Source: Allosalinactinospora lopnorensis
GTDB taxonomy: Bacteria; Actinomycetota; Actinomycetes; Streptosporangiales; Streptosporangiaceae
DNA length: 43,013 bases
Assembly: GCF_000981225.1 (NCBI RefSeq)
Contig: NZ_LAJC01000053.1
Coordinates: forward strand, 1-43,013
Direction of reading: 5' to 3'
The stretch's first letter is position 1, and each line of letters begins with the position of its first letter. Positions 3,442 through 16,086 of the stretch are shown piece after piece. The notes beneath the pieces are model-generated. The model was not told the DNA's origin. It saw only the letters and a program-made list of their open reading frames with translations, and did no database searches. The translations under genes and the position numbers were made by a program.

Positions 3442-5513
3442 TCACCGCGGGGACAGCCCCGTTCGCGCGGCCGCGAACGCGTGGGCGTCGGCCGCGAGAT
3501 CGATCGCCCGGCTCACGGCGCGCGGCCCGTGCCCGACGTCGTGCTCGTAGCGCAGCAGCGCCGGGGCCCCGGCCGCCTGCAGCGCGGCGCACATCTTGCG
3601 AGGGTGGGCGGCATCGGTGCGGGTGTCACCGTGGAAACCGGTGAGCAGGACCGCGGGATAGTGGTGGCCGTGCCCGTCGAGGGCGCGGTGGTACGGCGAA
3701 TAGGACATCAGCGCGGCGAAGTCGCCGGGGTCGGCCGCGGTCCCGAACTCCCGGATCCACATCGCTCCCAGGCCGAGGCGCTCGAAGCGCGCCATGTCGG
3801 CCAGCGGGGCCGAGGCGATGACGGCCGAGCACAGGTCGGGGCGCAGCGTCGCCGCGGCGAGCACCAGCAGGCCGCCCGCCGACCCGCCGGAAAGGCACAA
3901 CCGGCCACGGGTGCAGTATCCGTCGGCCACGAGCGCGTCACCCGCCGCGATGAGGTCCTGCACCGAGCGGATCTTGTTCCGGCGCGCCCCGCGCAGGTGC
4001 CACTCGCGTCCGGAGTCGCCGCCGCCGCGCACGTGCGCGACGGCGTAGCGGCCGCCGGCCAGCAGCCATGCCAGAACGGTCGCGCTGAAGCCGAACTGGC
4101 GGGGCCGGCCGAAACCGCCGTAGGCGTGCAGGATGGTGGGCGCGGGCTCCTCCCACGAGGCGGGGAGGCCGAGCAGGAGAACATCGTCACCGGAACCCGC
4201 GTGCCGTCGAGGGATCGGCACCGGATGGTCCGCCGGTGCACGCGGGGCGGCTCCGGGGTCGCGGCGGATTCCGGCCAGCGCCGTGGGAGCCGGTCGCCGG
4301 GGCGGTAGGTCAGAACGGTCTGCTGCGTGGCGACGTCGGCGTAGCAGAAGTGCGCGGAGCCGTCGGTGGCCCTCTCCAGCTGGGTCACCATGCCCTCGCC
4401 GGGGAGTTCGAGGCGCCGCGGCTTGCGGCCGTCGCGCGGGTCGTGCGCCGTCAGCTCGCTGATGCCGAGGCGGGTCCGGGACACGAGGAGTTCCACGGCC
4501 TCGCCGGCCTCGCAGACGGCGAAACCGTCCAGGGTGGCCCTGGGGTCTTCGGGGACGACCTCGCGCCAGTGGGCGGGATCGGGGTCGGCCGGATCGGCCG
4601 CGCAGATGCGGCGCCGCGGGGCACCGTGCGTCGTGCGCAGGTAGAGCAGGCCGTCGGGGCCGATGTCGGCCCGGGACTCGATCTCCTCTCCCACGTGCAC
4701 GCCGACCAGCGCGGGCTCCTCCGCGCGGCCGTGCGCGGTATCGGCGATCCACAGGTCGTTGCGGTGGCCGGTGCCATGGCTCTCCGAGACCAGCAGCCAC
4801 CGGTCGCGCAGCAGCCGCACGCCCGGCACGGTGCGCGGCCCGGCGCAGGCGTGCACCAGGATGTCGGGGCGGTCCGGCTCCGCGCCGACGCGGTGCAGCC
4901 ACACCCCGCGGCGGCCGTCGCCGTCGTCGCGCCGCACATAGTAGAACGCGGCCGTTCCGGGATCGCCGAGCCAGGCCACGTGGGAGTAGCGCACACCCCG
5001 GATCGGTTCCTCGACCGGACGCCCGGTCTCGGTCGACAGCACACGCAGCGCGCCGCGTTCGGTGCCACCGCTGGAGGTCTGAACGGCGACGTGGCGGCCA
5101 TCGGGGCTCGGCTCCCAGGCGTCCAGCGTTGTGCGGCCGCTGGGGTCGAAGGCGGCGGGGTCGAACAGCAGGCGTTCCGTCGTGCCGTGCCCGACGAGCA
5201 GCCGCGGGTGCTCGGCTCCGGCGTCGCGCCGTGTCGCGAAGACGAGATCGCCGCGCCGCACCGGGGGCGCCCAGAGGTCGGTGCTGACGAGCCGGCGGAT
5301 CTGCGCGGCGAGCCGGTCGCGCAGCGGCCATGTCGCCACGGCTTCGGAGAACTCCCGCGCCCGTTCGTCGAGCCATCCGCGGGTCGCGGCGGATCCAGGG
5401 TCCTCCAGCCATCGGTAGGGGTCGGCCACCGCGCGGCCGTGCAGGGTCTCCACGACCGATACGGGGGCATCGCGCTCGCCGGGCCGGGCGAGGTCCTGGC
5501 GCGAGAAGGCCAT
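3442..5513 (-). pseudogene. S9-family prolyl oligopeptidase, frame broken near 4178
   Basis: Two reading frames together make one S9 peptidase of about 690 aa. The first (ATG 5513; an upstream GTG at 5519 is also possible) holds the N-terminal signature ADPYRWLEDPGS and the beta-propeller. The second holds the catalytic alpha/beta-hydrolase domain, with ILHAYGGFG, the nucleophile Ser in LSGGSAGGLL, the acid in TGFHGDTRTDAAHP and the His in DVGHGPR. The frames join at VPVTMF / LLLGLPASWEE. Inserting one C near 4178 restores a continuous protein, so an assembly error is likely. Such enzymes cleave short peptides after proline, and relatives remove leaders in some class III lanthipeptide pathways. 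Here the gene lies directly upstream of a 35-aa peptide gene. Confidence 0.8.
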
Positions 5514-5791
5514 GCTCACCCGCGGTCCGGGGTTCGGGGGACAGGAGCGGGCACGAAGCCAGGCGGATGGTTACGCACGATCACATCATCAAAGCGCACC
5601 GTCATCCCGGTCAAGCCATTCATCTCTTCCCGGCAGGGCCGTAAATATGGCGGAAGGGTGAGGTTTACAAAACGGCCCTCGGCATACGGCGTGCGCTGGT
5701 GGAACGCCGCGACGATGAGGGGCGCGACGCGGTCGCCCGACGGCCGGCCCCACCGCACTCGCCGCGGCCCCCGCGCGTGGCCGCCTTCGCG

Positions 5792-6541
5792 CTACCGGCC
5801 GAGCAGCAGGGGAGCGGCGTCGCGGGGGACGACAGTGAGAGGGCCGGGGGCCAGGACCGCCAGGGCCGCCCGGTAGTCCGGACCGGCGTCCAGGTCGGTC
5901 AGCCAGGCGTGTTCCGGGGGCTCCGGGGCGTTCCAAGCGTGCAGCTCGGCCGGCTCGTGCGGCCCGTTGACGCTGATCGAGCTCAGCCCGGCCGAGAGCC
6001 CGTCGCCGGTGGCCTTGAGCAGGGCCTCCTTGCGTGCCCAATAGCCGAAGAACCCGTTGACGTGCGCTTCGGGGGGCAGGCTTTCCAGCGCGGCACGCTC
6101 GGCCCCGGTGAGGGCGTACTCGATGATGCCCTCGATGTCGCGCTCCGCTGAGACGCGCTCCACGTCCGTCCCGACGGCGACGCCGCGGGTGAGCGCGAGC
6201 GCGACCCGGTCCCCGGAGTGGCTCAGGGAGATCTCCAGACCGTGCGCCGGCCCGTCCGGCCGGGGCTTGCCGTGCGGTTCACTCCGCCCGCCCGGCTTCC
6301 GCGCGCAGCCGCGGCAGTGCAGGCTGAAGGCGACCTCGTCGGGTGCGCACCCCGCTTCGCGCGCGCAGACCAGCCGGGCCAGCGCGTGCGCGACGGCGTA
6401 GCGGTTCCGGTCGGCTTCGAACCGGAAACGCGCGTGCCGTTCCCGTTCGCGCTCGTCGAGCAGGTCCAGCAGCGCGGGCGAGGCCCAGGCGGGGTCCGCC
6501 CACCACACGTCGCACACGGGCGTCCTCGGTCCAGGTGTCAC
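5792..6541 (-). CDS. 4'-phosphopantetheinyl transferase, Sfp type
   Basis: A protein of about 249 aa from GTG 6541, which has GGGAG nine bases upstream; an upstream GTG at 6571 would add 10 residues. It transfers phosphopantetheine from CoA to carrier proteins. Visible family motifs are VGTDVERV (magnesium-binding Asp), FGYWARKEALLKATGDGLS (the W-x-x-K-E-A signature) and the N-terminal ERERHARFRFEADRNRYAVAHAL stretch. There is no carrier-protein synthase in the window, so its partner is probably elsewhere on the chromosome. It is upstream of the S9 peptidase by about 280 bases on the same strand, and I see no sign that the two are functionally linked. Confidence 0.88.
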   Translation of the reverse strand: MTPGPRTPVCDVWWADPAWASPALLDLLDERERERHARFRFEADRNRYAVAHALARLVCAREAGCAPDEVAFSLHCRGCARKPGGRSEPHGKPRPDGPAHGLEISLSHSGDRVALALTRGVAVGTDVERVSAERDIEGIIEYALTGAERAALESLPPEAHVNGFFGYWARKEALLKATGDGLSAGLSSISVNGPHEPAELHAWNAPEPPEHAWLTDLDAGPDYRAALAVLAPGPLTVVPRDAAPLLLGR

Positions 6542-6691
6542 ACGAACATTCTCCCGGTTCCGGGCGCGCACCGGAAACGGCGGCGCCCCATTCGACGGCC
6601 CTCGTGCGCCCGGTCCGGGGGCGCACCCCGGCGGATGCGCCCGAGGCCGGCCGATGCGTGCCCGGCCACCGGGACGCGTTCCGTGTCGGTG

Positions 6692-7689
6692 TCAGCCGTC
6701 GCTCTCGGGGGCCGGTTCCTGCTCGGGGACGGTGTCCTGGTCCGGCTGCTCGTCCTCCTCGACACCGTGCTCCTCCTCACCGTCCGGATGCTCGTGCGGC
6801 TCCCCGTCCGGGTACACCGGCGACTCCCCGGGGACGCCGGGAGACTCAGAGGGGTAGGGACCCTGGCCCGGGTCGGTCTCCTCGGAGTCCTCCTTCTCGG
6901 CGACCTTGATGTGGCGGGACTTCCCGGTGTTGATGTCGGTGGCCACGAGTTCGGTGATCCGCTCCTCGCTCGGGGTGATCACGGCCGTCTCCGTGGGTGT
7001 GTAGCCCTCCCAGGACTCGCCCGTGTAGGTCTCCTCCCTTCGGGGGAGTCGGGCTCGGGCAGCTCGCCGGGATCGACCGGTTCATCGTTCGCCTGCGGTT
7101 CGGTCAGCGGGTTCCCGCACTGGCACCGCGCCCCCGGGGTGCCGTACTCGTCCACCAGGACCGCGCTTCCGGCCTCTAGCGTGGCCAGGAACGGCTCCCA
7201 GGAACCGTCGCCGTTGTAGCTGTGGTTGGTGACGAGGGTGTCGCCGCGCAGGAGTACCGGTGTCATCGCCCGGATCGTGGGCTCGACCTCCTCGGGGGAG
7301 ATCCCGCGCGCCTCGCCCCAGGCGCGGCGCTTGTCCTCGTCCGCGTTGAGCTGGCCGACCAGGGCCTCCTTGTCGCAGTGGATATCGTCGTCGGCATCGC
7401 CGTAGAGGCCCTCCTCCCCGCCGTCGCGGGTCCCGGAGGGAGGCTCCGTGTCGGCCCCCTCGTCCCCGCCGCTCTCCTCCTCGGCGGGTTCCTCCGCGTT
7501 GGGGGCGTTCCGCTCGTCGGCGGGTGCCGTCTGCCCCAGGGGTGTGCCCGTGCCGACGGGCTCGGTGAAGGGGCCCGGTCCGGGCTCATCGATCGCCTGC
7601 AGCTCAACAGACAGCTCTTCGCCGCCCCCGCAGCCGCTCAGTACGATGGTCAACGCAAAAGCGGCGGTCGCCGCCAGAGATCTCCACAC
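6692..7689 (-). pseudogene. DUF6777-type secreted lipoprotein, frame broken near 7035
   Basis: Starts at GTG 7689 behind a GGAG site. The first 22 residues are a lipoprotein signal (FALTIVLSGCGGG, lipobox LSGC). A long Glu/Pro/Gly-rich linker follows, then the DUF6777-like domain with LYGDADDDIHCDKEALVGQL, the FLATLEAGSAVLVDEYGTP motif and the paired cysteines of CQCGNPL. The frame is lost after SPEG near 7035, beside a CTCCC-TTCG-GGGGAG hairpin. One added G gives EGEETYTGESWEGYTP and continues into VITPSEERITELVATDI, then an acidic, proline-rich tail to the stop at 6692. The domain has no known function. The protein is probably anchored to the outer face of the membrane. Confidence 0.7.
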
Positions 7690-8313
7690 AAAAGGCTCCG
7701 TCTTTTGGTCGCGAAAAATGGTCTCCGGTGATGCAGAGTCGCGGAATGTCACCAGAGGAAGCTGGGGGCCAGCCATTAGACGGCGAGCGGGGCCGCTTTT
7801 CGGTGCTCGTTTCCGAGCCGCACGGAATCAGGTGCCGGTCAGACCTCGGTCCGGCCGTTCGCGCTGACCGGATTCCTGGGATGACTGGGATATGGGGTCC
7901 GAGGGGTCACTGACACCGAGTGGCACCCTCCAAGCCGTCCAGTGGGCCCAGGCCCCTCCACCTCATCTGGTGGCACCGGCCCCGATCGGTGGGTGCCCCG
8001 GTGCTTGGCCCGATTATGCCCTATCGGCGGCGTTTTCGTACCCCGGTGGGATGATCTCAGTGAGTTTTCTCATCGGAGAATGCCAGGACCAGCGGCTTTG
8101 GCGGTGGCGCCGGTCGCGGCGGTCGCATTGCGGTATGCCGCAGTCCCGCCCAGAGGCCGACCGGTACCGCCCTCGCGCGCCCGCGGACCGGCCACCGTGA
8201 ACATATGGCCACGACCAAAAGGTGGATCCGGTCATAACTTCACGGTGGATGCGAGATCCCCGGTGAACCCGACGGTGGTGCCTGTGGGATGAGAGGGCTT
8301 GGACGTTCCAATC
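7690..8313. other. Gene-free stretch between the DUF6777 gene and the methyltransferase
   Basis: About 620 bases with no convincing coding sequence on either strand. It contains the first copy of a 59-bp repeat (8194-8252). The rest shows no promoter or RNA structure that I can support. Confidence 0.5.
8194..8252 (+). repeat. 59-bp repeat, copy A
   Basis: Starts ACCGTGAA and ends TTCACGGTGGATGC, so the ends form an imperfect inverted repeat (ACCGTGAA with TTCACGGT). It aligns without gaps to 20053-20111 in the same orientation; hand comparison gives 49 of 59 identical bases. The two copies bracket the lasso cluster and the zinc-hook ATPase. It may be a dispersed palindromic repeat of this genome or the edge of an inserted segment. 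Confidence 0.65.
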
Positions 8314-9129
8314 TCATTGGCGCATCGGCGGGGAAGGCGCGTGCGGCCGTGTCTTGCGGGCCCAGGCGATCATGCCCCGCTTGGTGACCGTCATTGGGGT
8401 GGCGAACTGCCGGGCGGCGGTTTCGGCGCGGTGCCGGGGAAGCCCGCGGCCGCAGAGGAACAGGCGAGCGCGCCGGTGTCGGGCAGGTGTACCAGCGGCG
8501 CGTTCCAGTGCCGCACGTCTACGTCGTCGAAGACGGGTTCGATCAGCTCGCGTCCGTTCTCAGCGTCGAAGCTGGTCGGGCGCCCCACCGGGGGAGTGCC
8601 GAGGCGAGTTCGGGGTCGTTGTAGCGGCTGGAGGTGCAGACCGCGAGCAGGCCGTCGGGGCGCAGTACCGGTGTGCCTCGCGGAGGGCGGGAACGGGATC
8701 GGCCAGGTGGTAGAGCATCCACAGCGCGGCCGCGCCGTCGAAGGTGTTGTCCGGGAAAGGGAGCTGGAGGGCGTCCGCGCGCACCGCGGGCCGGGGCGCC
8801 TGGGCGATGTGGCCGGCCCGGTCGACCACCACGGTCCGGATGCCGCGGCCGCCCAGCAGCCGGGCGAGCGTGCCGTTGCCGCCGCCGATGTCGACGACCA
8901 GGTGGCGGGCTTCGGCCGCGAACCGTTCCGCCACGTCAGGATGGACGTCGTTACGGGCCAGAAAACGCTCGGTCGCCCTCTGGTTCGCGGCGAAGCGGTC
9001 CGGGTCCTCGTCGTAGTCGCCGGCCAGGACGTGTCCGGGGCCCTCGTTCGCCAGCGGTTGTGGGCTCACGACATGGGTGTGCCCAGCACCTGGCCCGGCC
9101 CCAACCATTCCGCGAAGGCCAATGGCCAT
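8314..9129 (-). pseudogene. Class I SAM-dependent methyltransferase, three frame breaks
   Basis: The N-terminal part reads cleanly with the SAM-binding motif LVVDIGGGNGTLARLL, then VVVDRAG, ADALQLPFPDNTFDGAAALWMLYHL and PVPALREAHR. After this the frame changes near 8669, 8580 and 8425. With one base added at each site it continues as VLRPDGLLAVCTSSRYNDPE, GAPTSFDAENGRELIEPVF and ETAARQFATPMTVTKRG to a stop at 8314. This gives a normal UbiE/COQ5-like small-molecule methyltransferase of roughly 250-270 aa. The true start may be a later GTG (for example near 9069). All three breaks need single-base additions at G/C runs, so it may be intact in the organism. It is about 125 bases beyond the lasso cluster on the same strand; a role in that pathway is not shown. 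Confidence 0.65.
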
Positions 9130-9254
9130 CCACCGGGACGGATATCCGTCCAGTCCGGGTCACCGGCGCTCAGCTCCGGATAGTCGACGGCCACGAGGCG
9201 GGGCGCCGCAGCAGGCGCGATTTCAGGAGGTGATTGGGCTCGTGGGCCACCGCA

Positions 9255-10298
9255 TCAAGGCCGATACCCCATGTCCAGCGTGGGACGGACCTCCCAGCCG
9301 CTGTCCACCCGGTGGAGAGCCGGGCGCATATCTGCGTACCCAGGGTGTCCGGCACCGCGCCACGCCTCCGCCCACTCCCGGAGGATCCGCGGTGCCCGCT
9401 GGCCGCCGACGTGGACGGTGTCCGTCCTCGTGCCGCGGTCGAACAGCGCGGCGCCACGGGCGTCGGAGTAGCCCACGCGCCAACCTGAGCCGCCCAGACC
9501 CGCGACGCTTAGGCCGTCAGGGCAGGTAGCGTACAGATAGGCGACGAAGTCCTGCGCCTGTTCGCGCTCGGTGAGCGGCCCGCGTGGACTCGGGCGGGCA
9601 TCCTGCAGCGATCTCAGCAGCGTTTCCGCCGCATGCTCGTCGTCGGCGGCCCACGCAGCGGCGAACCACCACGGCGTCCCCTCCGCGTCGCGGACGAGGG
9701 CGTCGACACCGCGCGGAGGGACGAGCCACTGGGTGAGCACCTCGTCGTGCATCTCCACGTACCCGCCGGAAGACAGCGATTCCCCGGAGAGCCGGCCGTC
9801 GGCGGTGATACGCGCCTTGACCACTGCGCTCGTCTTCACCAGGGGCGTGACCTGGACCGGAGTGATGAGAAGCGCTTCTGATGCGGCCTGCTCCACCCAC
9901 GCTTGCGGGATGACATCGGGGGTGGCCCAGGCGACGACGCGGTCGAAGGGACCGCAGTCGGGTGCTCCTTTCCTGCCGTCGTCGGCGAGAAGCTCGATAT
10001 TGCTCCGGGCCTGGCTGTGGTGCCGCTCCCGCGCACGGTCGACGAGATCGGGCATGACGTCCACGGACACCACGGTTCCTGCCTCGCCGACGAGTTCGGC
10101 GAGCAGAGCGCCGGAGTAGCCCGACCCCGTCCCGATCTCCAGTACGCGCATGCCTGACCGGACATCGAGCTCGTCCAGCGTCGAGGCGATGAGCCAACCG
10201 ACGGTCGTCTGAGTGACGAGGGCGCCGTCAGGGTGCCGCGTGTAATGGTCCTCATCGACGGCGTCGAGGGCGCGTCGGACCGCTGGGCTGAATTCCAC
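9255..10298 (-). CDS. Lasso-peptide-associated protein-L-isoaspartate O-methyltransferase homologue (aspartimide-forming)
   Basis: A 347-aa PIMT-fold methyltransferase. Residues 25-45 (GALVTQTTVGWLIASTLDEL) and the SAM motif VLEIGTGSGYSGALLAEL (from about residue 52) match PIMT repair enzymes, as do FDRVVAWATPDVIPQAWVEQ and LITPV. Repair PIMTs are about 210-220 aa; this one has roughly 130 extra C-terminal residues, containing GSGWRVGYSDARGAALFD. The start is GTG 10298, about ten bases after the B2 stop, with AAAGG overlapping that stop, so it is the last gene of the lasso operon. In published PIMT-containing lasso clusters (cellulonodin-2, lihuanodin) the enzyme methylates a ring Asp of the folded lasso peptide, and the ester closes to an aspartimide. 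The same job is inferred here. Confidence 0.9.
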   Translation of the reverse strand: MEFSPAVRRALDAVDEDHYTRHPDGALVTQTTVGWLIASTLDELDVRSGMRVLEIGTGSGYSGALLAELVGEAGTVVSVDVMPDLVDRARERHHSQARSNIELLADDGRKGAPDCGPFDRVVAWATPDVIPQAWVEQAASEALLITPVQVTPLVKTSAVVKARITADGRLSGESLSSGGYVEMHDEVLTQWLVPPRGVDALVRDAEGTPWWFAAAWAADDEHAAETLLRSLQDARPSPRGPLTEREQAQDFVAYLYATCPDGLSVAGLGGSGWRVGYSDARGAALFDRGTRTDTVHVGGQRAPRILREWAEAWRGAGHPGYADMRPALHRVDSGWEVRPTLDMGYRP

Positions 10299-10308
10299 AG
10301 GGAGCCTT

Positions 10309-10743
10309 TCAGGGATCGATGTCAGGTACGAAGCAGGAGCAGGCAGGGGCGGTCGGCGGCGCGTGCGCCTCGCCCACCGGGTGTCCCTGCGCCTCGACCC
10401 AGGCGTGGGCGGCGTAGGGCATGAGGCGCGCGCCGATGCACCAGCCGAGGGAGCGGCGAAGCAGCAGCGCGGCGATCACGGCAGCGAGGGAGGTCTCCAG
10501 GCAGGCTGCCCGGCCTGGGAACCAGTGTGCGGCGGTGCGGCTGGCGGCCACGGCAGCGGCGGCCTCGTTCAGGGTGGCCGGTTTCGGGGCGCCCTGCCTC
10601 AGCTTGCCGACAATCGCCACGCTGTATTTGACAGGGAAGCGCAGCAGCAGGATCGCGATCGCGAACCCGAACAGGTCGGCCAACCGGTCGCGGTGGCGCA
10701 GACGGCGGTCCGGTGCCGCGGGAAGGGGCATGTGCGTACTCAT
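10309..10743 (-). CDS. Lasso peptide leader peptidase (B2, transglutaminase-like cysteine protease)
   Basis: A 144-aa protein from ATG 10743, which overlaps the stop of the preceding RRE gene by one base (TGATG), so the two are translationally coupled. Catalytic residues of the lasso B2 family are visible: Cys81 in GRAACLETSLAAVIAALLLR and His113 in YAAHAWVEAQG. The N-terminal half (RLADLFGFAIAILLLRFPVK) is the helical segment typical of split B2 proteins. It removes the leader from the precursor after the RRE protein delivers it, giving the free Gly1 amine needed for ring closure. It lies third in the order cyclase, B1, B2, PIMT. Confidence 0.92.
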   Translation of the reverse strand: MSTHMPLPAAPDRRLRHRDRLADLFGFAIAILLLRFPVKYSVAIVGKLRQGAPKPATLNEAAAAVAASRTAAHWFPGRAACLETSLAAVIAALLLRRSLGWCIGARLMPYAAHAWVEAQGHPVGEAHAPPTAPACSCFVPDIDP

Positions 10744-11015
10744 CACTGTTCCTTCCCGCCCCTGAGCAGCCCGTGGTTGCGCAGAGCCTCGACCAGTCGA
10801 CAGGTGTCGGCGGATAGCCGGCCCGGAGTGATGCCCAATTCCGGTGCGAGTTCGGCGGTGATCGCTTCGATATCGGTACCGGCCGTGATCCGGTTCCAGA
10901 TCGCGGCAGTTGTGGGGTTGAGCCCGAAGAACCTTCCCGTGGCGAGGTTGAGCAGTACCGCACCGTCTTCGGTGGTCACGAAGTGGACGTTCGGGGCGGG
11001 GGCGACTGTCGTCAT
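10743..11015 (-). CDS. Lasso peptide RRE protein (B1, PqqD-like)
   Basis: A 90-aa protein from ATG 11015, which overlaps the cyclase stop as ATGA. The PqqD-like fold of RiPP recognition elements shows in VHFVTTEDGAVLLNLATGRF, the FGLNPTTAAIWNRI segment and the helical C-terminal half ending VEALRNHGLL. B1 proteins bind the leader at its conserved Tyr and Pro residues and hand it to the B2 protease. The matching YxxP motif is present in the precursor at 12920-13036. Overlaps on both sides place it firmly within one polycistronic unit. Confidence 0.92.
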   Translation of the reverse strand: MTTVAPAPNVHFVTTEDGAVLLNLATGRFFGLNPTTAAIWNRITAGTDIEAITAELAPELGITPGRLSADTCRLVEALRNHGLLRGGKEQ

Positions 11016-12853
11016 CGGTGCCCTTGTCTTTGATTTGCGGTTGTGACAGGGGAGGAGCGGTCGTCGAGGCGCCGTAACCACACCTCGGCGGAGAGGACCT
11101 CGCCGAGCCCGGCCATCGCCGCACGGCCTCCGCCGACCGCGGTATCCAGTTCGCGGAGTACGAGGTCAGGCCGGATGATGCCGAGGTCATCGAGTCGGGA
11201 CTCGTGCAGTAGCGCGCGCAGGACCGCTGCGTTGCGGCGTGCTCCGTGGTACTCGCAGGCGCTGTAGTCGCCTTTGGTGCGGCGTGTGAACAGTTCATTC
11301 GGGAGCAAGCCCACCATGGCGGCACCCAGCAGAGGCTTCGCCCGGTCGGCCGATACCCGGTCGGCCGCGGGCAAGCTGAGGCAGGCGTCCAGCACCTGGT
11401 GGTCGAAGAATGGAGCGGACACCCGGACGTCAAGGTGCTCAGCGATCGCCATGAAGGATCGGGTTGCCGCCGCGTGCCAGCGGATCGTGCGCAGTGTGTG
11501 GGCATCGGCGCCGTCGGCAGCGGTGGCGCCTTCCGCCGTCTGCCGCAGCAGGCCTGCTGCGGCAGAGCGAGCACTGGGTGTCGCCCACGGGGCGGACTGG
11601 CTCAGAGCGGCCCAGGCGATGCTGTTCTCCATGGCCGGGGAGTAGCCCGCACGGTGCGGCCTGGGTAACCCTTCAAGCTGGGAGGCCAGCGCGGTAAGTG
11701 TGTCCGTGTAACTCGTCCGGGCCGTTGTCAGCGCCGCGCGTATGACGCGGTGTACCGGACGGTGCCGAAGTCTCGCCCACCCGGTGGTCTCCCGGACGAA
11801 CTGTCGGGCGCGGGCCGGCCGTGCGAGGTCGGCCAGGTACGTCAACGGAGCGCCGAGCACCACGTCCCCGCCGTCGCCGACGAGGTGGAGGGTGGAGCCT
11901 TGGGCGGGCAGGAGGCGGGAACGGTCACGCGCGTAGATCACCGTGTCCAGGCTGGGGTGGTCGGTGAACGGGACCGCCATCATGTCGGTGAAGGGCAGGG
12001 TCGCTGCGTCGCCCTCGACGAGCACCTGTTCCAGGGCGGGCGCAACGGCAGCGATGCGGGAGGCATAATCCGTGTCGTCATCGTTGGCCGCGTAGGAATC
12101 GGTGTAGGTGAGGGCCGGGATCGGGGACGTCCGGCCGCGGGCGGCGAGCAGGGCGAGGGATGAAGAGTCCAGGCCGCCGCTGAGATCAGCGGTGACTGAG
12201 CGCACTCCGGCGACACGCTCGTCCACTCCGGTCAGCAAGGCGGAGTGCAGCGCGTCGCTTGCCGTGGCGAAGTCGGTCCGCTCCCAATGCCGGGAACGCT
12301 CCACGACGGAGGCATGACCGACCCGAGCGTGCAGCACCTGGTCGGGCGGCAGTTCGGTGAGACCGCTGAACAGAGACGCGCCACCGGAGCCTTCGATGAC
12401 ATCGGGACACAGCATTCGGGCGGCCAGTATCCCTGGGTTGATTCGGAGGCCGTCCGGCGAGGCCAGCGGGAGTGGGCTGGAGGCGTACTCGACCGTTCCC
12501 TCCCCGCAGCGGAACCAGATCCGGACGAGTCCCGCCATGTCCCCGGCGATGGCCGTCTCGGAGCCGTCTGTGACGACCACACCGTAGGCACCGGCAAGGC
12601 TCCCCATGCCCATGACTGCGCGGGGGAGGGTGGGCGCGCTGGCCAGATGTTCGAGTAGAGCGGTGTCGGGGGCGAGACACTCCCCGAAGAGAACCGCCCG
12701 GCGAGGGCCGAAGCTCAACTGCCGTACCTGCCTGGCGGGCCAGTGCCCGGACAGCCGCACGGAGCATTCGCCTGTCCAGAGTGCACGGCCGTGGAGGCTG
12801 GAGGACATAGCGGGGTTTCCGGCCTGTCCGAATATGAACCGCTGCTTCGCCAT
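11012..12853 (-). CDS. Lasso peptide cyclase (asparagine-synthetase-like, C protein)
   Basis: A 613-aa protein from ATG 12853, with GGGGAGC upstream; further in-frame sequence upstream reads through a hairpin and is unlikely to be translated. It belongs to the asparagine synthase B family that has been recruited for lasso rings. The glutaminase-like N-terminal half is present but lacks the catalytic N-terminal Cys. The ATP-pyrophosphatase loop is TADLSGGLDSSSLALLAA, around residues 222-239, with later motifs HLVGDGGDVVLGAP and SAPFFDHQVLDACLSLP. It adenylates the side-chain carboxylate of the ring Asp and couples it to Gly1. The first enzyme after the precursor, it is 67 bases downstream of it with a strong hairpin between. 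Confidence 0.95.
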   Translation of the reverse strand: MAKQRFIFGQAGNPAMSSSLHGRALWTGECSVRLSGHWPARQVRQLSFGPRRAVLFGECLAPDTALLEHLASAPTLPRAVMGMGSLAGAYGVVVTDGSETAIAGDMAGLVRIWFRCGEGTVEYASSPLPLASPDGLRINPGILAARMLCPDVIEGSGGASLFSGLTELPPDQVLHARVGHASVVERSRHWERTDFATASDALHSALLTGVDERVAGVRSVTADLSGGLDSSSLALLAARGRTSPIPALTYTDSYAANDDDTDYASRIAAVAPALEQVLVEGDAATLPFTDMMAVPFTDHPSLDTVIYARDRSRLLPAQGSTLHLVGDGGDVVLGAPLTYLADLARPARARQFVRETTGWARLRHRPVHRVIRAALTTARTSYTDTLTALASQLEGLPRPHRAGYSPAMENSIAWAALSQSAPWATPSARSAAAGLLRQTAEGATAADGADAHTLRTIRWHAAATRSFMAIAEHLDVRVSAPFFDHQVLDACLSLPAADRVSADRAKPLLGAAMVGLLPNELFTRRTKGDYSACEYHGARRNAAVLRALLHESRLDDLGIIRPDLVLRELDTAVGGGRAAMAGLGEVLSAEVWLRRLDDRSSPVTTANQRQGHR

Positions 12854-12879
12854 GGAGCGGCTCCCCTCGTCGCGTAGCC

Positions 12880-12909
12880 GGTGTGGACCCAACCCCGTGG
12901 GTCCACACC
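12880..12909 (-). promoter_or_regulatory. Perfect 12-bp hairpin between lasso precursor and cyclase genes
   Basis: Arms GGTGTGGACCCA (12880-12891) and TGGGTCCACACC (12898-12909) with a six-base loop, starting 10 bases after the precursor stop. No T-run follows on the minus strand, so it is better read as a partial attenuator or a 3' stabiliser of precursor mRNA than as a full terminator. Such an element would let the cell make far more precursor than enzyme. Confidence 0.75.
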
Positions 12910-12919
12910 GGGCGGACGG

Positions 12920-13036
12920 TCAGTTGTAGCGGGCGACGTTCGTGTCGGCGGTGTCGTGCGCCGCCGAGCCGAGCGTCAACTCGCGGACGTCTCCCAGTTC
13001 GATCACCATCGGAGGCTCGTAGGTCTCGACCTGCAT
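12920..13036 (-). CDS. Lasso peptide precursor (A)
   Basis: A 38-aa precursor from ATG 13036, with GGAGGAA seven bases upstream. The leader (residues 1-22) holds YEPPMVIELG, the Y-x-x-P-x-(L/V)-x3-G motif recognised by B1, and the conserved Thr at position -2 (LTL before the core). The predicted 16-residue core is GSAAHDTADTNVARYN: Gly1 would link to Asp9, leaving a seven-residue loop and tail. The ring contains Asp6-Thr7, a plausible methylation and aspartimide site for the PIMT encoded in the same operon; Asp9-Thr10 is used for ring closure. Candidate plug residues are Arg14 and Tyr15. The reading comes from direct translation; the modifications are inferred from the enzymes. Confidence 0.93.
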   Translation of the reverse strand: MQVETYEPPMVIELGDVRELTLGSAAHDTADTNVARYN

Positions 13037-13082: not shown

Positions 13083-13119
13083 AGACTATTCTCGAAAACT
13101 GACTAGTTCAAGGAATAGT
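13083..13119 (-). promoter_or_regulatory. Lasso operon promoter overlapped by an inverted repeat
   Basis: Reading leftward, TTGAAC (13111-13106) and TAGTCT (13088-13083) are separated by 17 bases, a fair actinobacterial promoter about 45 bases before the precursor start. A perfect 7-bp inverted repeat, ACTATTC (13085-13091) and GAATAGT (13113-13119), brackets it: one arm overlaps the -10, the other abuts the -35. This position suits a repressor. The regulator encoded immediately upstream is the obvious candidate, and its own operon start carries a similar repeat at 14763-14797. Confidence 0.6.
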
Positions 13120-13157: not shown

Positions 13158-13997
13158 TCAGGTGTGTTCGCGGGCCAGCCGCGCCAGGAAGTTCCTGGCC
13201 TCGTCGTCGTAGACCGCGGCGTCGGCGAACAGCTCGAACAGCTGCTGGTGGAAGGCGATGTCGCGGGTGTCGGTGATGGACTGGCGGGTGGTGAACCCCT
13301 CGACCACGACCTCCCGCTCGTCGCGCAGGACGAAGGCGCTCTTGGGTACCTGGGGAACGGGCGTCTCCCACGGCAGCACGCCGACGCGGACATTGGCCAG
13401 TGTCGACAGGTTGGCGATCCGGTCCATCTGGGCGGCCATCGTCTGCGCATCACCCAGCTTCCAGCGGAGAGCGGCCTCGGTGATCACGAAGTGGAACCGG
13501 AGCTCGGTGTCGAACAGCGCGGACTGCCGGTTGAGCCGGCTGCGGACCGCCTCGGCCACGTCCACGCCCGACATGGACAGCGGCTGGCTGAACACGGCCC
13601 GAGCGTACTCGGCCGTCTGCAGCAGGCCCGGAACCATCGTGGGCTGGAACGTCCGGGTCAGTGTGGTCGCGCGCTCCTCGCGGGCGATCGCCTCTTGGAC
13701 GCGGTGCAGGCCGCGCTTGCGCAGCATGCGCAGCGAGTCATAGCGCTCGTTCAGGTCGGCGGCCCTGGCCAAGAGCCTACGCTGTGTCGCGGGGGGTACG
13801 GCGAGGACCTTGAGTATGGCGTCGACATCGTCCGTGCCGGGGGTGACACGGCCGGTCTCGATCTTGGAGACCTTCGACTGGCTCCACCCGAGCCGCTCCG
13901 CCGCCGCGACCCCGGACATGCCGGAATCCACGCGGAGTCGGCGAATCTCCTCGGCCAGCTCCGCGCGGTCCCGCTCGAACGACTCCCGTGCTGCCAT
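13158..13997 (-). CDS. XRE-family helix-turn-helix regulator with DUF5753-like region
   Basis: 279 aa. The N-terminal helix-turn-helix (about residues 15-60) reads LRVDSGMSGVAAAERLGWSQ then SKVSKIETGRVTPG, typical of the XRE family. The C-terminal two thirds match the DUF5753 type common in actinomycetes: TRTFQPTMVPGLLQTAEYAR, RLNRQSAL, FHFVITEAALRWKLG and NVRVGVLPWE. Its ATG overlaps the stop of the DUF6879 gene (TGATG), making a three-gene operon. It lies directly upstream of the lasso precursor, separated only by the promoter region, so control of that cluster is plausible but not shown. Some family members work together with small DUF397 partners. Confidence 0.88.
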   Translation of the reverse strand: MAARESFERDRAELAEEIRRLRVDSGMSGVAAAERLGWSQSKVSKIETGRVTPGTDDVDAILKVLAVPPATQRRLLARAADLNERYDSLRMLRKRGLHRVQEAIAREERATTLTRTFQPTMVPGLLQTAEYARAVFSQPLSMSGVDVAEAVRSRLNRQSALFDTELRFHFVITEAALRWKLGDAQTMAAQMDRIANLSTLANVRVGVLPWETPVPQVPKSAFVLRDEREVVVEGFTTRQSITDTRDIAFHQQLFELFADAAVYDDEARNFLARLAREHT

Positions 13998-14542
13998 CAG
14001 TCCCGGTGGTAGTGCGGATGCGCCTTCCAGTACTCGCTGAAGGGTACGGCCTGAGCCATCGCGTGATCACGCTGGGCGCGGTAGTGAGCGAGGTCGGGGT
14101 CCTCCAGCAGCTCCCCGTGCCGGAACTCGCCGTCGTCCGTGTAGCGCATGAGTACGACGCGGGTGTCGTCGAACAGCCAGAAGTCCTCGTCGACCAGTTC
14201 GCTCGGACGCTCCCGCTCCGCGGTGTCGAGAATGAAGACGCGGTCCCCGGCCCGGGAATTGTAGAGGTAGCCCCACTCCATCTCGTAGCGCAGGTAGTCC
14301 GTGGGCGGCCCCTCGAACACGTGGACCCGCGAGTAGTCGATCCCGCGGCTGGTCTGCTCGGCCACCCGCTTCATGTACGCCGACGGCTCGCGTTCCTTCG
14401 GGCACGGTTCGCCCGCCAGGTACGAGCGTAGCCTGTCCGCCTCCGAGACGGGGTTGTAGACCGGCCGCGTCTCCAACCGGAACACACTGCGCTCCACGTC
14501 GCGGAACAGTCGGCCGAACTCCGCCGGCTCAAGAACCGGCAT
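13997..14542 (-). CDS. DUF6879 family protein
   Basis: 181 aa, no signal peptide or membrane segment. The conserved pattern of the family is visible in YMKRVAEQTSRGIDYSRVHV, DYLRYEMEWGYLYNSRAGD, FWLFDDTRVVLMRYTDDGEF and the C-terminal FSEYWKAHP. The family has no established activity; its genes commonly sit beside XRE/DUF5753 regulators in actinomycetes. It overlaps both neighbours: the 78-aa gene upstream by 14 bases and the regulator downstream by one base. A second family member at 30931 sits beside a STAND protein. Confidence 0.8.
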   Translation of the reverse strand: MPVLEPAEFGRLFRDVERSVFRLETRPVYNPVSEADRLRSYLAGEPCPKEREPSAYMKRVAEQTSRGIDYSRVHVFEGPPTDYLRYEMEWGYLYNSRAGDRVFILDTAERERPSELVDEDFWLFDDTRVVLMRYTDDGEFRHGELLEDPDLAHYRAQRDHAMAQAVPFSEYWKAHPHYHRD

Positions 14543-14765
14543 GGAGCCCCTTCAGCAGGTCAGCCGGGACCTCGACGGCGGACTCACCCGCGGGAAGCCC
14601 CAGCTCGTCGAGAACACCGGCATCGGTCACGGTGTACCCCTGCACCACCACCGTCCCCTGGTCTGTCGCGTACAACGTCGGGCAGGTGTCGTCCTCACAC
14701 GTCCCGGCGATCTTCGTGAGCCTCACTGCGTCCTCCTCACCAAGAGGGTTAGTCTTGGTGGGCAT
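14529..14765 (-). CDS. Small hypothetical protein (78 aa), first gene of a regulator operon
   Basis: Starts at ATG 14765 and ends 14 bases inside the following DUF6879 gene. It begins MPTKTNPLGEEDAVRLTKIAG, one residue beyond the point where I can quote safely, and continues with CEDDTCPTLY and GTVVVQGYTV; the C-terminus is LGLPAGESAVEVPADLLKGL. The two close cysteines could bind a metal or form a disulfide. I do not recognise a named family. Similar small genes precede DUF6879 and XRE genes in actinomycetes. The start lies within AT-rich promoter-like DNA and may be nearly leaderless. Confidence 0.65.
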   Translation of the reverse strand: MPTKTNPLGEEDAVRLTKIAGTCEDDTCPTLYATDQGTVVVQGYTVTDAGVLDELGLPAGESAVEVPADLLKGLHAGS

Positions 14766-14797
14766 ATTCCCATAAATAATATACGTAGAAGAATATC
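14763..14797 (-). promoter_or_regulatory. Inverted repeat over the regulator operon promoter and start
   Basis: ATATTC (14764-14769) and GAATAT (14791-14796) are separated by 21 bases. The arm core and spacing (TATTC-N21-GAATA) are the same as in the lasso promoter at 13085-13119. A TATTAT -10-like hexamer (14781-14776, leftward) lies between the arms. A shared operator for autoregulation and lasso control is the suggested reading. Confidence 0.45.
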
Positions 14798-14971: not shown

Positions 14972-15235
14972 CTACAGCGCCTCGCGCTTGGCGGCGCGCA
15001 CGAACGCCGCCCACTCCGACCGGCCGAAGGAGAGGAACCCGAGGTCACGCTGTGTGGAGTCCCGCACGGCGAAGCGGGTGGAACCGTCGAGGACGGGGCC
15101 GGCTTCCACGCAGCTCTTCCCTCCATCTGGGCTGCGGTTGCTGAGGTGCCAGCCGACCTCGACGCAGCTGGCACCGCCGTTAGGGCTGTGACTGCTCTTG
15201 CGCCAGGCGACCACCGAGGACGTGTCTGTGTACAT
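14972..15235 (-). CDS. DUF397 protein with a duplicated motif
   Basis: 87 aa from ATG 15235, overlapping the stop of the XRE regulator by one base. The DUF397 signature WRKSSHSPNGGASCVEVGW is followed by a second copy, NRSPDGGKSCVEAG, and then by FAVRDSTQRDLG and the usual C-terminal FGRSEWAAFVRAAKRE. DUF397 proteins are small partners of XRE/DUF5753 regulators in actinomycetes, in some studied pairs acting as an antagonist of the regulator. The internal duplication of the CVEV block is slightly unusual. Confidence 0.9.
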   Translation of the reverse strand: MYTDTSSVVAWRKSSHSPNGGASCVEVGWHLSNRSPDGGKSCVEAGPVLDGSTRFAVRDSTQRDLGFLSFGRSEWAAFVRAAKREAL

Positions 15236-16086
15236 CACAGTCTCTTCTCCAAAGCCGCGATAAGCGCTACTGATTCTTCGCAATCAAGACTAACGCTACG
15301 AAGCCGCCCCAACATGCCGTCGAGTTTGTCAGCCTGTTCTGCTTCCAGGTAGAGGCCCCCAGCCGGCCCCAACGTGTAGGCGATTTGGGGGAAGGGGTCT
15401 TCCATCTTGATCAGGCTGAAACCGCCATCCGGGCTCGCATGTTCTCCCGCCGAGTATGGAAGCACTCGGAGCTCAATGTGTGGATGCGTGGACTGATCCA
15501 TGAGGTGCCGTAGTTGCGCCTTCATCACATCGCGTCCACCAACTAGCCGATGGAGGGCTGCCTCGTCCATGATCACCGACAGCTCCATCGGCTCGTCTCG
15601 TACGAGCACACGCTGCCTCGCTAGTCTCAGTTCCACGCCGCGCTCTACGAATGTCGCTGACTCATTCGGGTTGACGGCTCGAATCCAGGCTTCCGCATAC
15701 TCGGGTGTCTGTAGGAGACCGTTCACTGGCATCGCGTCGTATGCACGGATGGTCTGTGCCCGACTCTCTACCCAGAGGTAGTCGAGGAACCAGCTTTCGG
15801 CCTGTTTGGAGTACTTTTCCCACCACCCTGTCTTGGTCTGCTCCTGGCCAAGCTGTAGCAGCGTGTTGCGCTGGTTCTCGCCTTCAAGGCCGTAGAGATC
15901 CATCAGTGCGAGCAACTCGGACTGATGGATCGGCTGGATACCGGCTTCAAACCGGCTGAGCGTGGTGAAGTCCCGCCTGATGTGTTCTCCTACCTCTTTC
16001 AGCGTCAGTTCGTTCTCCAGCCGGAGCTCCTTGAGAAGCTTCCCCAGCCACTGAGCCCTCAGGGTGACCTTCCGCTTCCTCGACAT
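15235..16086 (-). CDS. XRE-family regulator with DUF5753-like region
   Basis: 283 aa. The helix-turn-helix is LRLENELTLKEVGEHIRRDF followed by TTLSRFEAGIQPIHQSE. The DUF5753-type body shows IRAYDAMPVNGLLQTPEYAE, ELRLARQRVL, LSVIMDEAALHRLVGG and IELRVLPYSAGEH. The start ATG 16086 follows AAGGAG. It is translationally coupled to the DUF397 gene, so the two form a regulator-partner pair distinct from the one at 13158. Base composition here and rightward to 19.8 kb is visibly less GC-rich than the flanks, consistent with acquired DNA. Confidence 0.88.
   Translation of the reverse strand: MSRKRKVTLRAQWLGKLLKELRLENELTLKEVGEHIRRDFTTLSRFEAGIQPIHQSELLALMDLYGLEGENQRNTLLQLGQEQTKTGWWEKYSKQAESWFLDYLWVESRAQTIRAYDAMPVNGLLQTPEYAEAWIRAVNPNESATFVERGVELRLARQRVLVRDEPMELSVIMDEAALHRLVGGRDVMKAQLRHLMDQSTHPHIELRVLPYSAGEHASPDGGFSLIKMEDPFPQIAYTLGPAGGLYLEAEQADKLDGMLGRLRSVSLDCEESVALIAALEKRL

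Follow-up and report, generated by a model that had tools for sequence, protein, structure and literature searches.

What does the minus-strand gene group at positions 9255-13036 of contig NZ_LAJC01000053.1 from Allosalinactinospora lopnorensis, an actinomycete of the Lop Nor region, make, and how might its production be controlled? The window, meaning the whole 43,013-nt stretch analysed, carries here the genes of a lasso peptide together with a PIMT-type aspartyl O-methyltransferase. Very probably, these genes specify an aspartimidylated lasso peptide, or lassimiditide, of the ring type (group 1), with an upstream XRE/DUF5753 cassette regulating them via a palindrome.

Five close-packed genes, for the precursor, cyclase, RRE, B2 and PIMT, form one operon on the minus strand. 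The precursor gene (A; 12920..13036) encodes 38 aa with leader MQVETYEPPMVIELGDVRELTL and core GSAAHDTADTNVARYN, is preceded by the ribosome-binding-like sequence AGGAGGAAGTGACATG, and matches NCBIfam lasso_leader_L3 at 37.0 bits (cut-off 19). It is followed by an asparagine-synthetase-like lasso macrolactam cyclase (C; 11012..12853; Pfam Asn_synthase; NCBIfam macrolact_Ik_Al 336.9 bits, cut-off 300), a PqqD-like leader-binding protein (RRE, B1; 10743..11015; Pfam PqqD 52.0 bits, cut-off 23.4), a transglutaminase-like leader peptidase (B2; 10309..10743; NCBIfam lasso_biosyn_B2 70.1 bits, cut-off 33), and the PIMT (M; 9255..10298), a 347-aa protein with a GTG start and a C-terminal extension (Pfam PCMT 103.5 bits, cut-off 20.3). 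The first-pass annotation had placed these five genes on one strand with overlapping or near-touching ends, and all were found at their coordinates, with two overlaps (ATGA between cyclase and RRE, TGATG between RRE and B2) and a gap of 10 nt between B2 and PIMT. Four of the five exceed the cut-offs of lasso or PCMT families; the RRE passes Pfam PqqD only, scoring 57.9 bits against NCBIfam lasso_PqqD_Strm, under its cut-off of 70. The gene set of a lasso cluster, with precursor, cyclase, RRE and B2 together, is present on that footing.

Lasso precursors combine a YxxP motif and Thr at position -2 in the leader with a core that opens with Gly and has an acidic residue at positions 7-9. The window precursor satisfies this rule in each respect, with YxxP, Thr at -2, Gly1, and Asp9 as the acid. 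Its core carries DTAD at residues 6-9 (codons 12944..12955, minus strand), in which Asp6 is the predicted aspartimide site and Asp9 the predicted ring residue, following the motif given in a 2026 review (PMC13001092). In the available text of that review, lassimiditides are marked by D(T/S)AD in residues 6-9 of the core and by a PIMT with a C-terminal WXXXGXP motif, and both are found here: the PIMT homologue has the C-terminal domain, in which alignment places the motif as WRGAGHP (W313-P319, with W313, G317 and P319; 9342..9362, minus strand). The window core, with DTAD and no Asp beyond position 9, does not fit the loop-type (group 2) lasso peptides, for which the same text describes a conserved Asp in the loop and names no characterised member. 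The best solved-structure match of the PIMT model is 1DL5, a Thermotoga PIMT with a C-terminal extension, over 358 alignment columns at a root-mean-square deviation of 15.2, the model itself being moderate (mean pLDDT 63.0) and low across much of the C-terminal part.

Judged by what these protein families do, the RRE would present the leader to B2, which would cut after Leu(-1), and the cyclase would join Gly1 to Asp9 to give a nine-residue ring around the tail. The PIMT would then methylate the threaded peptide at Asp6, and closure of this ester onto the backbone nitrogen of Thr7 would yield a succinimide of 1625.72 Da whose hydrolysis Thr7 would steer back to Asp. Recomputed masses are 1661.739 Da for the linear core, 1643.729 for the lasso, 1657.744 for the methyl ester and 1625.718 for the aspartimide, and the earlier hand calculation agrees with them to all digits quoted. 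The proposal that this is a PIMT-bearing lasso cluster of the cellulonodin-2/lihuanodin class is supported by the gene set, by DTAD at 6-9, by WxxxGxP and by the position of the PIMT in its tree (below), and the aspartimide of the predicted product is that expected from the PMC13001092 description of the class. Taken as a prediction from sequence, the biosynthetic reading is solid.

The same arrangement recurs among relatives. A PIMT search at E 1e-40 gave a match in 32 of 297 sampled genomes of the family (own genome counted) and in 5 of 394 genomes of the class, 4 of which had been found in the family search. Among 33 regions around PIMT matches, the window's own excluded, 19 carry cyclase, B2, PIMT and a D[TS]xD precursor, with an RRE in 16 of these 19, and the remaining 14 have missing or partial lasso genes, some of them lying at contig ends. 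The window arrangement is not due to chance, because those 19 regions repeat its order of cyclase, B2 and PIMT after a D[TS]xD precursor. The window, L152 (a locus of a different family) and the Streptomyces plasmids pSITFR-21a and pSTRVI01 bring these to 23 ring-type loci with 20 distinct cores. Asp6, Thr or Ser7, and Asp9 are present in all 20, while position 8 carries Ala in 13 cores and one of K, E, Q and M in the other 7. Precursors were located by leader pattern, position or annotation at 21 of the 23 loci and by the D[TS]xD motif itself at two (L037 and L041), which therefore carry no weight as a test in this conservation count; other short open reading frames with the leader pattern, lacking D[TS]xD and away from the cyclase, were passed over. 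The nearest core found, GSAAHDTADMNTARYN (L036), differs from the window core at two residues. A tree of 42 PIMTs places the window in a set of 17 rows with 97/94 support, which also holds 11 other DTAD rows, 3 rows lacking lasso genes and 2 with partial ones.

Several observations accompany this survey. Seven loci (L061, L062 and L064-L068) have D(T/S)xD as their ring-type motif, position 8 being occupied by K, E, Q or M in place of the Ala of the published motif. The two plasmid loci are lassimiditide-type clusters with cores GTNNFDTADETQYKNA (L150, pSITFR-21a) and GTQYQDSADDTQYKT (L151, pSTRVI01); a tblastn search with the cyclase gave no match in plasmids (E 1e-40) or phages (E 1e-10), though plasmid clusters exist. 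Four PIMTs of the window's 17-row set (L051, L052, L053 and L042) stand without cyclase or precursor: L051 retains RRE, B2 and the cassette, L052 and L053 have cassette genes, and L042 has just a weak XRE match; these PIMTs may be relics or enzymes for another substrate. Among the matches listed from a PIMT profile search of genome contigs (80 loci), only L069 exceeds 50% identity, the other 79 lying at 29-44%, and L069 (Nocardiopsis sp. CC223A) is apparently on the same contig as L047. Within the genome of A. lopnorensis, a PF01135 search found 20 PCMT-domain places, 10 of them above 90 bits, the window's PIMT included. PADLOC hits were to helix-turn-helix models and, for the PIMT, in part to mad2; these were not accepted as defence.

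Directly upstream of the lasso operon, on the same strand, lie three overlapping cassette genes. The first (14529..14726) encodes a 65-aa protein from a GTG start, chosen by reference to a GAGGAGG site and to where the L051 homologue begins, and gave no Pfam match (78-aa reading, E 0.01) and no NCBIfam match (65 aa); the second (13997..14542) encodes a DUF6879 protein (Pfam PF21806, 164.4 bits), and the third (13158..13997) an XRE/DUF5753 protein (Pfam HTH_31 and DUF5753), the putative cluster regulator, relatives of which adjoin other clusters. Nine of the 23 ring-type loci have the cassette in this arrangement (the window, L036, L037, L038, L039, L041, L044, L046 and L047), with the first gene undetected and the DUF6879 match partial at L039. 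A structure search with the DUF6879 model was ruled out, the model being too poor (mean pLDDT 43.8), and DUF6879 is named in no published main text searched.

Cassette and lasso operon are linked by a 31-bp palindrome, TATTC-N21-GAATA, which occurs (without assigned strand) at 13087..13117 upstream of the precursor, where it overlaps a sigma70-like TTGAAC-N17-TAGTCT, and again at 14765..14795 upstream of the cassette. The pattern was derived from the aligned regions before nine precursors, and a search of 28 loci at spacings 20-24 found it in six only (the window, L036, L041, L044, L046 and L047). Each of the six has two copies, one on the precursor side and one on the cassette side, always with spacing 21; the cassette-side copy, present in 6/6 loci bearing the precursor-side one, is an independent test because the pattern was drawn without it. 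Genome-wide, the six genomes, which span three genera, contain 16 sites, 12 at these six loci and 4 elsewhere. Nine other genomes, three of them with a more distant form of the cassette, have none, the reversed control pattern has no site in the 15 genomes, and the two sites of the window compare with none in 100 shuffles. In all six loci, the precursor-side palindrome overlaps TTGAnn-N17-TAnTCT, a sigma70-like promoter by eye, and its position over a promoter-like sequence suggests repression. The XRE/DUF5753 regulator, in all likelihood a repressor, would bind the palindromes that precede the cassette operon and the lasso operon, and one palindrome before both operons would mean that peptide and regulator are switched together. 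From these sequence features, the cassette probably controls peptide production.

Alternative explanations were weighed for the enzyme, for its product and for the cassette. A PIMT beside a lasso cluster could be an isoaspartate-to-aspartate repair enzyme placed there by chance, as its Pfam PCMT domain would allow, but this is highly improbable for a gene that sits 10 nt behind B2, encodes the C-terminal extension with WxxxGxP, and recurs in full lasso clusters in 19 of the 33 relatives' regions; it scores 92.6 bits against TIGR00080, below the cut-off for canonical repair enzymes (159.05), and C2, elsewhere in the genome (169.4 bits in the PF01135 search, 258-aa frame), seems closer to the ordinary enzyme. 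If the PIMT instead acts on the lasso peptide, Asp6 might still end as the methyl ester or return to plain Asp, the aspartimide not being the end product. Lassimiditide aspartimides hydrolyse in Tris at pH 6-9, completely in at most 21 h under basic conditions (PMC13001092, available text), and the same enzyme type ends in isoaspartate in other ribosomally synthesized and post-translationally modified peptides (RiPPs), according to part of PMC10787088. However, both characterised lassimiditides, cellulonodin-2 (Thermobifida cellulosilytica) and lihuanodin (Lihuaxuella thermophila), formed an aspartimide stable in water on expression in E. coli, and Thr after Asp, retained in the window core, directs hydrolysis back to Asp (PMC13001092, same portion), which makes an ester or plain Asp as end product quite unlikely.

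For the cassette, the rival is a toxin-antitoxin-like or developmental module, independent of the lasso genes and merely their neighbour. This would agree with DUF6879 genes elsewhere in the same genomes, with cassette genes near PIMTs that lack cyclase or precursor in L051-L053, and with the 10 of 23 ring-type loci at which the cassette is missing (L043, L045, L048, L056, L061, L062, L064 and L150-L152), L043 and L045 having just a distant XRE match on the opposite strand. A rare palindrome before both operons, with only 4 other places in six genomes, argues for a functional tie, as does the search for DUF6879 in 19 genomes, in which the cluster-side gene is the best or only genome-wide match in the five other palindrome-bearing genomes; an independent module is thus unlikely, albeit the least so of the alternatives. 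Besides the loci without a cassette, further results weigh against a lassimiditide cluster under cassette control. The cassette is rearranged at 4 of the 23 loci (L065-L068); at L037 (genome G075), DUF6879 has a better match elsewhere in the genome than at the cluster, and at L039 (G085), no cluster-side DUF6879 was found at E 1e-5; and in L037-L039, the cassette is present and the palindrome was not found. By a general dyad score, the window lies within its shuffles (20/60 as good), as do most loci, the top dyad of L036 differs from the palindrome, and a direct 31-mer comparison of the two sites exceeds all 20 shuffles in only 2/7 loci (L044 and L047). In the PIMT tree, DTAD rows also stand outside the 17-row set (L056, L150 and L152; six changes on the tree), so that the motif marks no single clade, and the peptide product is a predicted one. 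A ring-type lassimiditide cluster regulated by its upstream cassette nevertheless remains by far the preferred interpretation.

As for the role of the peptide, the available text of PMC13001092 leaves the purpose of the aspartimide modification open. A strict motif scan of 27 lasso loci and a few kb of flank around each found no open reading frame with both Walker A and LSGG, so that ABC export, if any, would depend on a gene elsewhere or on one missed by this strict test. Because the clusters show no ABC-transporter ATPase motif and the putative operator is common to cassette and peptide operon, the aspartimide lasso peptide might be an internal signal, not an exported antibiotic, that binds or reacts with a cassette protein and relieves repression, which we regard as a long shot. 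If true, an electrophilic ring that the PIMT can renew and Thr7 directs back to Asp would make a switchable feedback loop between a RiPP and its regulator.

Compared with published systems, the window cluster is an added member of a kind already known. By description, it resembles cellulonodin-2 and lihuanodin, which the 2026 review gives as the only two lassimiditides characterised, in DTAD at 6-9 and in lasso enzymes with a PIMT bearing the C-terminal domain and WxxxGxP, while its cassette and palindrome are unmentioned in the published descriptions as far as the available text of PMC13001092 goes. It shares the ring motif D(T/S)AD and the gene set with the group 1 clusters from genome mining, which, in the portions of the sources at hand, has reported 48 group 1 clusters (Cao 2021), 67 lasso clusters of both groups (Lee, PMC10787088) and 58 others (Cao 2023, quoted in PMC13001092). 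The string HDTADTN was found in no published main text searched, a scope that stops at the mining papers' supplementary lists, and a PDB sequence search with the precursor returned the leader of MS-271 (E 0.083) as sole match. The 2016 genome paper on A. lopnorensis CA15-2T, in the part available, reports that BAGEL3 detected an unnamed lasso peptide for which three of the four genes were present and the transporter was missing (PMC4749953); it may be the window cluster or the second cluster described below, L157, because the genome has two lasso B2 genes. The genome can be tied to that strain by its ectoine genes: around an ectoine synthase in G000:C9, open reading frames correspond to ectABCD in Table 3 of the paper under x -> 39782 - x, with six of eight printed gene ends in agreement and the remaining two differing in start-codon choice.

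The cassette also has known counterparts. XRE-DUF397 (WhiJ-BldB) pairs occur in Streptomyces, and DUF397-DUF5753 genes adjoin graspetide clusters in groups 11 and 13, the aspartimide group included (PMC10294661 and PMC13097080, available portions). The window is alike in having an XRE/DUF5753 regulator next to a small protein by a PIMT-bearing RiPP cluster, but its 65-aa protein has no DUF397 match (Pfam, 78-aa reading, E 0.01) and DUF6879 is added to the cassette; relative to these counterparts, the palindrome common to cassette and RiPP operon is the new element here. No description of such a shared palindrome for lasso peptides was found in the published main texts searched, as far as these were available. 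The cluster offers a clean lassimiditide member from a named, cultured strain, and the palindrome before peptide operon and cassette gives a concrete handle on control, which might aid the activation of silent clusters and work on peptide function. A separate XRE/DUF5753 and DUF397 pair lies at 14972-16086 (minus strand), upstream of the cassette; it has a clear likeness in L036, and its position beside relatives is not generally conserved.

The genome carries a second lasso and PIMT cluster, L157 (G000:C44:31000-45000), with a precursor at 5429-5569 on the plus strand, a cyclase within 5412-7310, B2 at 7638-8057 and a PIMT at 8070-9182. The 46-aa precursor, which scores 36.9 bits as a lasso leader, has core GQYASEHADDGDGAGYWSQPV, with calculated masses of 2190.89 Da for the lasso form and 2172.88 Da for the imide; cyclase, RRE, B2 and PIMT come after it, and the PIMT motif reads WYETGCP. 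Relatives L169-L171 have Asp-Asp at 9-10 in common, and L170 additionally has Asp6-Thr7, so the core does not fully separate the ring type from the loop type. In the PIMT tree, the four loop-type sequences group on their own with 100/98 support, apart from the ring-type rows and from the window PIMT. Judged by its sequences, L157 fits the published group 2, loop-Asp type; the window shares lasso genes and PIMT with that group and differs from it by ring motif and PIMT set. With ring-type and loop-type clusters in one genome, two PIMTs with presumably different target positions could be compared in one cell. The frame L157:1750-2835 resembles an ATP-grasp peptide methyltransferase family (273 bits, below cut-off).

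Between the precursor and cyclase genes, 3' of the precursor stop, lies a perfect 14-bp hairpin (12878..12911, minus strand) with a z of -3.20, 1 of 200 shuffles folding equally well. Of 15 relatives that were folded, 7 also have long stems after the precursor, differing in sequence, as judged by eye and without a shuffle control. The hairpin is a probable attenuator or transcript-stabilising stem, and a stem after the precursor would fit a higher output of precursor than of enzyme. A methyltransferase frame at 8560-9129 had no match at E 1e-4 in the regions of 40 relatives and was excluded as part of the cluster. Farther along the window, prolyl oligopeptidase domains at 3442-5519 (minus strand) are split over two overlapping frames, the N-terminal propeller in 3708-5519 and the catalytic part in 3442-5412, which points to a broken gene or a sequencing error.

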